Shown here: piece after piece, positions 56,221 to 64,000 of the stretch
Layout: every line of letters starts with the position of its first letter
Numbering within the stretch: the first letter of the stretch is position 1
Assembly (NCBI RefSeq): GCF_014203395.1
Contig: NZ_JACHIW010000001.1
Location: forward strand, 1 to 64,000
From: Saccharopolyspora phatthalungensis
GTDB lineage: Bacteria > Actinomycetota > Actinomycetes > Mycobacteriales > Pseudonocardiaceae
Direction: 5' to 3'
DNA length: 64,000 nt
Notes under the pieces: model-generated
Told to the model about the DNA's origin: nothing
Databases searched by the model: none
Seen by the model: only the letters and a program-made list of their open reading frames with translations
Position numbers and translations under genes: made by a program

Positions 56221-57918
56221 TCAGGCGGTCGTCACGGCCCATCCGCCTGCCTTGCGGGTTATCCCGAGCACGCCCAGTCGAGCGAGGTTGACCGCGGCGG
56301 CCAGCAGCGAGAAATCAGCGGCCACTTTCCGCAGTCCTCGGACACGGGCCCGTCGTCCGCCGTGGCGGTGGCGCATCAGGTGGCCGATCTTGCGTTCGAC
56401 TTTGGGCCTGGTGGCGCGGTAGTCAGCCTTCCAGGCGGGGTCGGTCTGGCGGGCACGACCGGCGGCCAGTGCGGCTTCGTGGGGGCTGATGGTGATGGTG
56501 CGGCCGGTCTTGGCGGTGGTGCACTGTGCGGCCAGCGGGCAGGTGGCGCACACGACGCCGAAGTTGGCCGCCCCAGCGTGACGCTCACGGGCGCGAATGG
56601 GTGCGGTATGCCCGGCCGGGCAGGTCACGGTCTGCTGCTCAAGGTCGATATCGAAACGGTCCTTGGGAAAATGGCCTTTCACCGCAGCCGGCGGTTGCAC
56701 CTTGAGCCCATTGTGGATCCCATTCTCGTCCAGCCTTTCCAGCAATTCCCCCGCCCCATAGGCCGCATCCCCATATACCGCGGCCTGACCCTCATCCCCG
56801 GCTTCGGCTTCGGCTTCGGCTTCGGCTTCGGCTTCGGCTTCGGCTTCGGCTTCGGCTTCGGCTTCGGCTTCGGCTTCGGCTTCGGCTTCGGCTTCGGCTT
56901 CGGCTTCGGCTTCGGCTTCGGAGGGCAGGATGTCGGACAGGAGGGTCTCGGCGGTCTCGGCGTCGCCGCTGTTGCCGGGGGTGACTTCGGTGGCGGTGAC
57001 GATCTCACTGTCGGGGTCGATGGCGAGATGTCCTTTGTAGCCGTCGAAACCGCGGGCCTGCGTTTTGTGGCCATGGCGGGTTTCGGGATCGACGGTGGAG
57101 ATGACCCGGTCCGGGGCGACCCGGCGGGCGATCCGGAACACCCCGTCGCTGTCTTCGGTCAGGTCCTGGCCCAGCACCGTGGCCAGCAGGCGCGCGGCCT
57201 CATCCACGCACTTGGTCCACTTCTGGCCTTCCATCAGGGTCAGCATCGCGAACCCGTCCCGGGCCCGGGAGTCGATCAACGCCTCCCGGGCGGCCTGGTC
57301 GTCCCAGTCGATCAGGGGTTTGCCCGCTCCGGCGTAGTCATCTCCGGAGGTGAGCACCGCCCGCAACCGGGCGGCCAGTCCGGCCTCAGCGGTGGCCAGC
57401 AGACCACGGATCGCCGAGCGGATCAGGGTGATGGTGTCCATCGTCGCGACCGCGTCATACAACGGGGTCGAGTCCAGCACCCTCCTGCACCCGACCAGAC
57501 CCGCCTGACGCGCGACATCCAGCACCGTCTCGAAGATCCGGTCCGGCCGAGCCGAGCGGGCCAACCGGGCCCGCATGTCCACCAGCACGGTGTGCACGAA
57601 CCCCGGATAGTCGAAATCCAGGCCACCGGCGGCGTACTTCCAGCGCGTGTCAAATGCGAACCGCTCCACCGCCTCCCGATCCGACAGGCCCTCGACACGC
57701 TGCAACACCATCACCACCGCCACGATCATCGGCGGCACCGACCGGCGACCCACATCGGTGAACAGATCCGCGAACATCTCATCCGGGAACAGACTGAAGC
57801 ACTCCCGATGCAACACCCCATAAATCGAACCCGCCGCGACCCGGCCCTCACAGTAATCCACCGTCGATCGCAGCAGATCACCCTGCCGCGGCGCGCGTCC
57901 CAACGTCACCCCCGACAT
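56221..57918 (-). CDS. IS1182-family transposase
   Basis: 565 aa. N-terminal DUF772-type domain (FSLFPDEMFADLFTDVGRRS, VGLSDREAVERFAFD-like EGLSDREAVERFAFDTRWKY), then a DDE domain (VLDSTPLYDAVATMDTITL, AVYGDAAYGAGELL). A run of about 20 Glu-Ala pairs interrupts the linker before YGDAAYG. A C-terminal Cys cluster (CPAGHTAPI, CATCPLAAQC) is typical of the family. No stop or frameshift, so the element may be active. Confidence 0.93.
   Translation of the reverse strand: MSGVTLGRAPRQGDLLRSTVDYCEGRVAAGSIYGVLHRECFSLFPDEMFADLFTDVGRRSVPPMIVAVVMVLQRVEGLSDREAVERFAFDTRWKYAAGGLDFDYPGFVHTVLVDMRARLARSARPDRIFETVLDVARQAGLVGCRRVLDSTPLYDAVATMDTITLIRSAIRGLLATAEAGLAARLRAVLTSGDDYAGAGKPLIDWDDQAAREALIDSRARDGFAMLTLMEGQKWTKCVDEAARLLATVLGQDLTEDSDGVFRIARRVAPDRVISTVDPETRHGHKTQARGFDGYKGHLAIDPDSEIVTATEVTPGNSGDAETAETLLSDILPSEAEAEAEAEAEAEAEAEAEAEAEAEAEAEAEAEAEAEAEAGDEGQAAVYGDAAYGAGELLERLDENGIHNGLKVQPPAAVKGHFPKDRFDIDLEQQTVTCPAGHTAPIRARERHAGAANFGVVCATCPLAAQCTTAKTGRTITISPHEAALAAGRARQTDPAWKADYRATRPKVERKIGHLMRHRHGGRRARVRGLRKVAADFSLLAAAVNLARLGVLGITRKAGGWAVTTA
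56800..56921. repeat. GGCTTC hexanucleotide repeat (~20 units)
   Basis: About 20 uninterrupted copies of GGCTTC (plus strand) encode the (Glu-Ala)n run in the transposase. Hexamer slippage would keep the frame. Confidence 0.95.
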
Positions 57919-60168: not shown

Positions 60169-61393
60169 TTGCGACTGTTCGTGGGTGATGACTGGGCCGA
60201 GGACCATCACGACATCGAGCTGATGGACACCTCGGGGCGGCGGCTGGCCAAAGCGCGGCCGCCCGAGGGCGTGGTCGGCATGGCCCGGCTGCACGCGATG
60301 ATCGGCAACCAGGTCGGCGAGGAACCCGACGAGGACGTGGAGGTGGTGATCGGGATCGAGACCGACCGGGGCCCCTGGGTCGCGGCGCTGGTCGCGGCCG
60401 GCTACACGGTGATGGCGGTCAATCCGTTGCAGGCAGCGGAATTCCGGCGCCGGCTGGGGGTCTCCGGGGCCAAAAGCGACGCCGGTGACGCACACGTGCC
60501 GGCCGACATGGTCCGCACCCACTCCCACGAGCTGCGCCCCGTCGCGGGCGACTCCGCCGAGGCCGAGGCGATCAAGGTCGTGGCCCGCACCCACAAAACC
60601 CTGATCTGGGAACGCACCCGGCACACCCAGCGGCTGCGCCACGCCCTGCGGGACTACTTCCCGGCCGCGTTGGTCGCGTTCGAGGACCTCGACGCCGCCG
60701 ACACCCTGGAGCTGCTGGCCAAAGCCCCGATCCCGGCGAAGGCCGCCCGGTTGACGCTTCCGCAGATCAACGCCGCGCTCAAGCGCGCTCGCCGCCGCGA
60801 CATCGCGGAGAAGGCGACCGCGATCCAGGCCGCGCTGCGCGCCGAGCATCTGGGCCAGCCCGAGGTCGTGGCCGACGCCTACGCCGCCTCCATCCAGGCG
60901 CTGATCGCCGTGTTGACCGTGCTCAACACCCAGATCACGGCCCTGCAAGGGCAGGTGCAGGTCCATTTTGGGCAGCACCCGGCCGCTCCAGATCATCCTC
61001 TCCCAGCCCGGACCGGGCGAGGTGTGCGGTGCCCGGGTGCTCGCCGAGTTCGGGGACGACCCCCACCGCTACGCCTGCGCCAAATCCCGCAAGAACTACG
61101 CGGGCACGTCCCCGATCACCCGCGCGTCGGGCAAGAAGAAAGTCGCCCTGGCCCGGTTCATCCACAACGACCGGCTCATCGACGCACTGATGACCCAGGC
61201 GTTCGCCGCGCTGAAAGCCTCGCCCGGAGCCCGGGCCTACTACGACCGACGAGCCCGCGGCTCCAGCCACAACGCCGCCCTGCGTCAACTCGCCAACCGA
61301 CTCGTCGGCATCCTCCACGGATGCCTCAAGACCGGCACCCTCTACGACGAGACGACTGCCTGGTCGCATCACGCCGAGAACGTTGCGGCTTGA
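60169..61393 (+). pseudogene. IS110-family transposase, frameshifted
   Basis: The first ~275 codons encode an IS110 N-terminal DEDD domain (LFVGDDWAEDHHDIELMDTS, VVIGIETDRGPWVAALVAAG). After QVHFGQHP (about 60985) the homology switches frame to IILSQPGPGEVCGARVLAEF and the transposase_20 domain (YAGTSPITRASGKKKVALAR), ending at 61393. A one-base indel near 60975-61010 separates the halves. IS110 elements lack inverted repeats, so the ends cannot be fixed here; the 268 bp upstream (59901-60168) probably include its left end. Confidence 0.85.
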
Positions 61394-61610
61394 CATTTCA
61401 GCTCCTGGGATGTCTTTCGCGCTCAGCGGGCCACTACTGCCGTGCTGGCAGTAGGTCTCTAGGGGTGCCTGTGCCTGCCGGTAGAGATTCGCCAGCGGCA
61501 TACACGTCCCGCAAGATTTTTGAACGGTGCAGCCCGAGCACCCGCCGTGACGGGTGGTGAGCCGGTCGCCGATCACGGCGAGCTTTCGGAGACCTTCGAC
61601 ACCCTCTTCG

Positions 61611-61831: not shown

Positions 61832-62494
61832 ATGGACTTCCGCAAACTGGGAAACGGTCTAACCGTTCAGCGCCCCTCGTTTGATCCCGATTATTTGAGC
61901 AACGCAACGTTCACCTTTCACGGAGAATTCGATGGCGACGAAATCCGTGTCGAGTCCGGCGAATTCACCGACCTCAGGGGCAAGGGGTCTCTCGCGCATA
62001 GCTTTGTGCGGTCCGTCGACTTGTCGGGTGCCCAGTTGTCGCCGTTGGAATTGTCGGACGTGCGGTTTGAAGATGTCGAACTTTCTAGCGCCTCTTGGCA
62101 GTCGGTGAAGGCTCGCCGAATCGAGATCATCCGTAGCCGTGCGATGGGGTTCCGGTTGTCGTTTGAGTCGGCGAGTGACGTCTACATTGATGGTTGCCGA
62201 CTGGACTACGCGAGCATTCATGTCGAGGCGGTCAAGGGTGCGCTTGCGTTCAATGAGTGCCTGTTCCGCGAGGCCACGATCAGCGGAGATCTGTCCAATG
62301 TGGTGTTTCAAGATTGCTCCCTCGACGGGGTCGAGTTCGAGTCGACCAAGGCTATGGGTTGCGACTTGACCACTTCGCAGATCACCGGTGCCCGTGGATT
62401 GATCGGCCTGCGGGGCGCACGGGTTACCGCAGAGCAAGCGACCTCGGTAGCAATTCAGCTTGCCGCCGAGGCCGGTCTCACGGTAAGCGATTAG
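61832..62494 (+). CDS. Pentapeptide-repeat-like beta-helix protein
   Basis: 220 aa from ATG 61832; a longer frame back to 61520 crosses the 54-bp repeat and is not coding-like. The protein has imperfect five-residue periodicity with central hydrophobics (VDLSGAQLSPLELSDVRFED, NVVFQDCSLDGVEFESTKAM, CDLTTSQITGARGLIGLRGA), as in quadrilateral beta-helix proteins such as gyrase-protecting McbG/MfpA. It is tail-to-tail with the RiPP precursor gene, overlapping by three bases. A self-protection role for the RiPP is possible. Confidence 0.8.
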   Translation: MDFRKLGNGLTVQRPSFDPDYLSNATFTFHGEFDGDEIRVESGEFTDLRGKGSLAHSFVRSVDLSGAQLSPLELSDVRFEDVELSSASWQSVKARRIEIIRSRAMGFRLSFESASDVYIDGCRLDYASIHVEAVKGALAFNECLFREATISGDLSNVVFQDCSLDGVEFESTKAMGCDLTTSQITGARGLIGLRGARVTAEQATSVAIQLAAEAGLTVSD

Positions 62495-62682
62495 CGCTTG
62501 TTCCAGTTGTCCCAGCCGGGGCGATTATCGAAACCGCCCCCACCCGTCTTGTTGTCCCACGAATCGCGGTTGTCCCAGTTGTAAACCGGGCTCGGGTGCG
62601 GGCGACGGCGAATCAGCCCCCGCAGCCCGGCTTCAGCTTCCCGCACTTTGCTAGCGAGTTCGACCGTTTCGCCCTGCAACAT
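62491..62682 (-). CDS. amcA: RiPP precursor with four aromatic-Asp-Asn motifs (AmcA-like)
   Basis: 63 aa from ATG 62682, preceded by GAAGGGG. Residues 1-~30 form a helical, charged leader (ETVELASKVREAEAGLRGLI then RRR). The core has WDNR at 36-39, WDNK at 42-45, a GGGG spacer, FDNR at 51-54 and WDN at 57-59, with WNK to the end. Aromatic-x-Asn triplets are the substrate pattern of three-residue cyclophane (triceptide) pathways, where a radical SAM enzyme joins the aromatic ring to the beta carbon of the third residue. Its 5' end overlaps the radical SAM gene by 32 bp. I recall an actinobacterial family named AmcA (multiple-cyclophane RiPP) with this look. Confidence 0.88.
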   Translation of the reverse strand: MLQGETVELASKVREAEAGLRGLIRRRPHPSPVYNWDNRDSWDNKTGGGGFDNRPGWDNWNKR

Positions 62683-63898
62683 CGAGGACCCCTTCGACTA
62701 ACGCGATTTTCCCGTTTCGACAATAGTTGGTTTCGGCGCCGTCAAGTCGACCGTGCTCGAAATATTTGTTTGCCGGGTGACCACCTCCACAGAACTCGAA
62801 ATAACGGCATATCGCGCGGCACCGATTGAGGCCACGCCGGTATTCCGTGACCCATGCGGAATTCAGGCCACGTTCGATCAGTGAATCGAGATCATGCGCA
62901 AGTACGTTGCCGCACTCGAAAGCCCCAAGCCTTTCCGAATGGAACCCCGCGAGTTCCGGTGAAATCAACGTCACGGCACCGTTCCATGCGACCGTCGGCA
63001 ACGGGTCAATGAGCGGTGATCGACTGTCCACGGTCGGGGCGTCTAGAACGGAAACGGCGTAGCCGAGCACACGGTCCACATCACGCAACCCCACTCGCCC
63101 GTCCTGCGACCACGCTTCTAGCAACGCTGACCAGAACGCACGGACGTGCGGTAAGTGGTGCGCATTACTGCGCTTGTTAACCCCCTCGCATTCTTCGATG
63201 TTCACACCGAGCCACCGTGCACCGAGGTCCGCAACGGTCGAGTACAGGCGTCGTGCTCGCTCCGGGGTCGGGTCGGACACGACAGCGATCACCGAGACCG
63301 AATGCCCGTCAGCAACCAGCCGACGAATGCCGCGTTCAATGCGCGGAAATGCGGGCCGGCGAGCGAGATCGACGCGGCCGGTGTTGTCGTGCTCTGCACC
63401 GTCCACGCTCACACCGACCCGTACTCTACGTTCCGCGAAGAACGCCGACCATGCCGCGTCGATCAGCACGGCGTTGGTCTGCACGCTGTGGAAGACCTCG
63501 ACCTCTTCGAACTGACCGAGCAGAGCGGCGAACCTTTCTCGCCCGGCGGCTAGCGGTTCGCCTCCGTGCCACACAATGTCTACTGCCCTGTCCTTCGTCC
63601 ACGGCCGGACGGACTTGGCGACCGCCCGCGCGACAGCAGGTGTCATTTGCCGATTCTGTTTGCGGTGCGGCAGGTAGCAGTAGCGGCAATCAAGGTTGCA
63701 CAACGTCGTAGGCTGCATGATGACGCTGTTGGGCTGGGCGACGGGAACGGTGTTGGTAACTCGTCCTTGTCCTGGCACGACGATGTCCTTCCCTTGCAGT
63801 TGCCAGGTTGGATACGGCTGGGCTGGTGCGTCGAAGGGCCACGCACCAGACCAGCCGTGCGACCCGGTGCCGAAGGTCGGGGCATCGACACCGAACAC
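62651..63898 (-). CDS. amcB: Radical SAM/SPASM cyclophane-forming peptide maturase (AmcB-like)
   Basis: 415 aa if GTG 63898 is used; the frame is open to GTG 63985 (444 aa), but that overlaps the upstream gene's end. Radical SAM cluster CNLDCRYC (Cys 67, 71, 74 from 63898), then GGEP-type VWHGGEPLAAG and VQTNAVLID. C-terminal SPASM-like Cys: FECGNVLA, CRAICRYFEFCGGG and NYCRNGK, for auxiliary Fe-S clusters. Such enzymes install cyclophanes by C-H activation. The adjacent precursor with four WDN/FDN motifs is its obvious substrate. The N-terminal GWSGAWPFDAPAQPYPTWQL may be family-specific. Confidence 0.9.
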   Translation of the reverse strand: MFGVDAPTFGTGSHGWSGAWPFDAPAQPYPTWQLQGKDIVVPGQGRVTNTVPVAQPNSVIMQPTTLCNLDCRYCYLPHRKQNRQMTPAVARAVAKSVRPWTKDRAVDIVWHGGEPLAAGRERFAALLGQFEEVEVFHSVQTNAVLIDAAWSAFFAERRVRVGVSVDGAEHDNTGRVDLARRPAFPRIERGIRRLVADGHSVSVIAVVSDPTPERARRLYSTVADLGARWLGVNIEECEGVNKRSNAHHLPHVRAFWSALLEAWSQDGRVGLRDVDRVLGYAVSVLDAPTVDSRSPLIDPLPTVAWNGAVTLISPELAGFHSERLGAFECGNVLAHDLDSLIERGLNSAWVTEYRRGLNRCRAICRYFEFCGGGHPANKYFEHGRLDGAETNYCRNGKIALVEGVLDVAGRNGRTR

Positions 63899-63906
63899 CG
63901 GGTCTA

Positions 63907-64000
63907 CTAGCGCCGCACGCCGGCGAGAACGCTCTGCAACACCAGCGGATTTCGTGCCATCTGTTCCGGCTCGGTCGGGCGGCACCAGTAACCCGAGCGG
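63907..64000 (-). CDS. C-terminal end of an upstream gene (partial)
   Basis: An open frame enters from the right edge and ends with a double TAG (63907-63909, then 63904-63906). The visible end is YWCRPTEPEQMARNPLVLQS, then VLAGVRR. It is in a different frame from the radical SAM gene and stops nine bases before its GTG 63898, suggesting one RiPP operon. I do not recognise the family from 30 residues. Confidence 0.5.
   Translation of the reverse strand, partial: RSGYWCRPTEPEQMARNPLVLQSVLAGVRR

Follow-up and report, generated by a model that had tools for sequence, protein, structure and literature searches.

What does a peptide-modifying enzyme make at one end of a 64,000-nucleotide stretch of the Saccharopolyspora phatthalungensis genome (contig NZ_JACHIW010000001.1, positions 1 to 64,000; hereafter the window), and what is the role of the gene next to its substrate? 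The locus holds a precursor gene, amcA, a radical SAM/SPASM maturase gene, amcB, and a pentapeptide-repeat gene. An earlier note, made from the letters of the window, had described the first two genes as a multi-cyclophane locus and had left out the third, which is the part that says most about function; its interpretation as a whole was partly supported by our results. Judging from our analysis, the gene set very probably makes a ring-stapled peptide, and the presence beside it of a gene resembling DNA gyrase protectors suggests that this peptide may attack DNA gyrase while the extra gene protects the maker. We therefore propose, with about an even chance of being right, a three-gene cassette in which the product of AmcB is a peptide with cyclophanes in tandem, and in which the pentapeptide-repeat protein serves as a dedicated immunity protein guarding type II topoisomerase.

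Precursor and maturase of the AmcA/AmcB type

The amcA gene (62491..62682, minus strand) encodes a 63-residue precursor with a leader and a WDN/WDN/FDN/WDN core, and its C-terminal end reads NWDNRDSWDNKTGGGGFDNRPGWDNWNKR. As the earlier note had claimed, this peptide overlaps a radical SAM gene; the overlap is 32 bases long, and a Shine-Dalgarno-like AAGGGG lies directly 5' of the precursor ATG. The precursor passed the AmcA model of NCBIfam (NF041721; 64.4 bits vs a cut-off of 40), and its C-terminal core carries four repeated aromatic-D-N motifs. When the 32-residue core was shuffled 200,000 times, three [WF]DN motifs appeared in 31 shuffles and four in none; together with the homologues, these shuffles ruled out chance or a miscalled open reading frame as the source of the precursor.

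The amcB gene is placed on the minus strand at 62651..63985 with an uncertain start codon, since the frame, counted from 62651, runs on without a stop beyond the end of the window and as far as 64294 of the genome; the profile match falls inside the window. The enzyme passed the AmcB model (NF041718; 436.6 bits vs 425), so that the likeness to the AmcA/AmcB families suspected in the earlier note was borne out by both curated models at their cut-offs. The CNLDCRYC motif, of the radical SAM CX3CX2C form, and the SPASM-like cysteine cluster that it had pointed out are both present in the frame, the latter as CRAICRYFEFC near the C terminus. Pfam Radical_SAM (PF04055) matched AmcB with 53.2 bits, and no match to the Pfam SPASM model was reported for this protein. 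Among the curated profiles, GrrM/OscB (TIGR04261) was the next best, at 223.8 bits under its cut-off of 310.

AmcB is thus related to the GrrM/OscB and XncB triceptide maturases, or three-residue cyclophane-forming enzymes (3-CyFEs), through its second-best model, but it falls below the GrrM cut-off and the precursors differ. According to PMC11002830, the bond reported for OscB runs from Trp C7 to the beta carbon of Asn or Asp, and that for XncB or OscB from Phe C4 to Asn; such Trp and Phe rings to the Asn beta carbon span positions i and i+2. If AmcB acts as these relatives do, it would link the Trp or Phe ring to the Asn beta carbon, i to i+2, so that AmcA would bear about four tandem three-residue cyclophanes. 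A fifth ring, which the earlier note had entertained at WNK, is weakly founded: the triplet after WDN varies across the family (WNK, WSK, WKN, WAK, WKK and others), and the pattern used found none in 5 of 50 cores.

These cores came from a survey of homologous loci. In the window's own family (f1), 25 of 390 genomes gave an AmcA_1 match; in three other families, 2 of 35 (f20), 16 of 180 (f19) and 9 of 101 (f3) did so. After one spurious match each had been removed from f1 and f19 and one locus of Yinghuangia soli (L008) added, 51 loci were counted (24 in f1, 2 in f20, 15 in f19, 9 in f3 and the added one). L057 (G310) and L202 (G520), with AmcA under the cut-off and neither AmcB nor a pentapeptide gene, were dropped before the count; L056, L155 (25.1 bits) and L211 were kept although their AmcA was under the cut-off, and L154, the AmcB half of the contig-split locus L047, was not counted separately. 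Exclusion of L155 from the core tally left 50 cores, in which strict [WF][DN]N motifs numbered four in 34, five in one, three in eight and two in six, while a single decayed copy had none; L055 has no core left. The aromatic-D-N motifs are therefore retained among the homologues, and F and W are mixed in 45 of the 50 cores. The features that had been called unusual are typical: the family as a rule combines Trp and Phe sites and has the precursor gene downstream of that for the maturase. A Shine-Dalgarno-like string was also seen 5' of amcA in 21 of the 24 f1 loci. The locus accordingly agrees with the AmcA/AmcB multiple cyclophane-containing ribosomally synthesised and post-translationally modified peptides (RiPPs; NF041721, NF041718) in both cut-offs, in gene order and in motif, but those models name two genes, whereas a third is tied to the AmcA_1 type here.

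Linkage of a pentapeptide-repeat gene to the precursor type

The third gene (61832..62494, plus strand) encodes a 220-residue protein recognized by Pfam pentapeptide models. It is convergent with amcA, and the two stop codons overlap by 4 bases. A gene of this kind adjoins all 51 WDN/FDN-type loci: it is convergent in 27 (f1, Yinghuangia and f20), and in the other 24 (f19 and f3) it has the same orientation as the peptide genes and lies downstream of them. In f1, the stop-to-stop distance ranges from a 38-base overlap to a 15-base gap in 23 of 24 loci and is 105 bases in the decayed L055. No pentapeptide-repeat gene was found at any of the 18 AmcB loci that lack a WDN/FDN precursor, a control in which L143, L148 and L153 either are short or reach a contig end, the AmcB of L149 is truncated and several enzymes are under the AmcB cut-off. 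Similarly, of the 13 f1 genomes with AmcB (E 1e-40) and without AmcA_1, 12 lacked the pentapeptide protein; in the remaining one, G196, its gene has AmcB and AmcA beside it as decayed remnants. On the AmcB tree, from which 11 short AmcB rows were left out, loci without the pentapeptide gene are scattered among those with it, requiring at least six changes, three of them forced by starred branches. The adjacency, the absence from the control loci and this scatter indicate that the pentapeptide gene follows the precursor type, and it is obligately linked to WDN/FDN precursors.

Could the locus be an ordinary AmcA/AmcB pair, with a neighbour inherited by position and no joint function? The constant gene order within f1 would agree with this, but two orientations in different families, adjacency throughout the 51 loci and absence from the 18 others make it the least probable of the explanations considered here, and a highly improbable one.

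Two f20 loci carry a further arrangement. In L162 (3894-5207) and L164 (1694-2533), the AmcA core is fused in frame to the AmcB C terminus; NCBIfam reports both domains in each fused protein, and a convergent pentapeptide-repeat gene adjoins both. The L162 fusion spans AmcB profile positions 7-359 of 362, and the N-terminal part of L164 lies in another frame. No fused form was found in the other 49 loci, apart from L200, in which a shortened AmcB, missing its SPASM end, shares one frame with the pentapeptide protein. The fused AmcB-AmcA would suit a study of how the maturase handles a tethered substrate.

No transporter or protease common to many loci was found, and the leader would be cut off by a protease encoded elsewhere. 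Regulators of the XRE/TPR type lie near 12 of the 24 f1 loci; as their type and place vary, they were rejected as core members of the cassette. Outside f1, five loci have a further same-strand gene with no assigned function after the pentapeptide gene; in L197, for example, it encodes 236 residues and lies about 0.9 kb after the amcA match.

Retention of the pentapeptide-repeat gene without the peptide genes

At E 1e-15, the pentapeptide protein was found in 56 of the 390 f1 genomes, with one match each. These include all 24 genomes that carry a genuine AmcA_1, and the remaining 32 have no AmcA_1; two of these 32 retain AmcB remnants, while no AmcB trace was found in the other 30 within the 13-18 kb covered. 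On the pentapeptide tree (five short rows left out), the orphan label changed at least eight times, four of them forced by starred branches, though 14 rows formed one clade, which occupies one conserved chromosomal place (15 loci). The orphan copies cover at least 85% of the profile in 29 of 32 cases, and the search reported an internal stop in two (G365 and G119). The pentapeptide protein is thus retained in genomes without the peptide genes. In two of the 30 genomes (L112 and L114), the tail-to-tail neighbour of the gene encodes another radical SAM/SPASM protein, one with a Cys-rich tail.

Decay within the 51 cassettes runs in the same direction. The pentapeptide frame is interrupted only in L048 and L056, and amcB is broken in both; in ten other cassettes, an AmcB frame of less than 85% of the profile stands beside an uninterrupted pentapeptide frame, and in none of the 51 is the pentapeptide frame interrupted where AmcB is long. 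Under a plain 85% coverage threshold, both proteins were long in 33 loci, only the pentapeptide protein in seven, neither in six and only AmcB in five; in these five, the pentapeptide frame is in one piece and belongs to shorter subtypes, so that it was not scored as broken.

This order of loss, the maker first and the presumed protector later, agrees with an immunity gene. Two points weigh against this inference, namely that draft errors may account for the broken frames and that orphan pentapeptide proteins may do something else. That the protein instead aids maturation, as a scaffold or chaperone of the precursor, would agree with its following the precursor type at every such locus; we regard it as very unlikely, because the gene is kept without amcAB in about 30 genomes and remains nearly full length in most copies without AmcA. 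We also consider it unlikely that the peptide is an internal signal or modulator rather than a toxin, with the pentapeptide protein as its receptor or as a controlled regulator, perhaps an MfpA-like gyrase modulator. The lack of a conserved transporter or protease, the conservation of orphan genes and the fusion, which suggests that the peptide may remain tethered, all favour such a signal; protection gives the better account of why the protein is kept once the peptide is gone, although a receptor with a second role could persist too.

Candidate target and genomic surroundings

The pentapeptide-repeat protein has the repeat helix and the C-terminal helix of the gyrase-protecting kind. Its top fold matches with known roles are EfsQnr and AlbG, both of which act on gyrase, and its sequence profile picks up EfsQnr, AlbG, QnrB1 and MfpA among 24 solved sequences. 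It shares fold and C-terminal helix with Qnr and MfpA, but it lies far below both family cut-offs (24.5 bits vs 240 for the Qnr model NF033086). For the f19-type protein, the anti-phage HalA model scored weakly (31.5 bits vs 250).

Pentapeptide-repeat proteins are described as immunity beside gyrase poisons in PMC9886550 and PMC12406682: McbG, AlbG, CysO and the speirobactin gene belong to clusters that make microcin B17, albicidin, cystobactamid and speirobactin. The partner here would instead be a cyclophane RiPP, and protection is proposed. We infer that the peptide bears rings and is toxic, its target being gyrase or topoisomerase IV. Once freed of its leader, the rigid peptide would poison type II topoisomerase, and the acidic, Qnr/AlbG-like protein, as a DNA-mimic partner of gyrase, would free or shield the enzyme.

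One observation counts against this target: HetL-like folds score nearly level with several Qnr proteins. The same cassette and immunity role might serve another target, with the protein shielding or sequestering a different protein or the peptide itself. The linkage and the asymmetric loss argue for immunity and not for a particular target, but the best matches with known roles act on gyrase, and we hold a target other than topoisomerase to be improbable.

In the portions of the literature searched, the matches listed held no paper recognizable as dealing with AmcA/AmcB or with pentapeptide-repeat genes next to cyclophane maturases; others may know of the association. Nor was a characterised product or described activity of AmcA/AmcB found there. 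With a pentapeptide gene that keeps to one precursor type, the function of these peptides can be put as a direct question, whether the matured peptide acts on gyrase with its neighbour as protector. More tentatively, and with somewhat less than an even chance, WDN/FDN triceptides may form a new chemical class of actinobacterial topoisomerase poison, each with its own DNA-mimic immunity protein, which peptide-losing species keep for cross-immunity; in one family, the peptide would be built as a tail of its maturase. If the peptide does act on gyrase and its neighbour stops it, a widespread actinobacterial peptide family would offer gyrase inhibitors of a rigid and unusual chemistry, and orphan pentapeptide genes would flag species exposed to such peptides.

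A mobile origin was rejected on these searches: the phage collection gave no AmcB match at E 1e-20, and the plasmids gave six, annotated GrrM/OscB at about 31% identity, and no match to the pentapeptide protein at E 1e-15. PADLOC gave no match for the precursor or the pentapeptide protein, and a defence system was rejected, the match of AmcB to viperin models being read as a shared radical SAM core. Outside the window, the same genome carries a decayed second copy, with pentapeptide gene fragments at 72.2-72.6 kb and, at 81.7-82.2 kb, a degenerate amcA together with the C-terminal portion of amcB. At 68684-70785, an ATP-grasp peptide maturase (338.4 bits vs 350) and a methyltransferase of ATP-grasp peptide systems (327.4 bits vs 380) likely represent a second RiPP locus about 5 kb away. 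Within the window, an IS1182-family transposase whose protein contains a long Glu-Ala repeat run lies at 56221-57918 (minus strand), and an IS110-like transposase frame (60169-61560, plus strand; 94.6 bits vs a family cut-off of 140) stands beside the pentapeptide gene.
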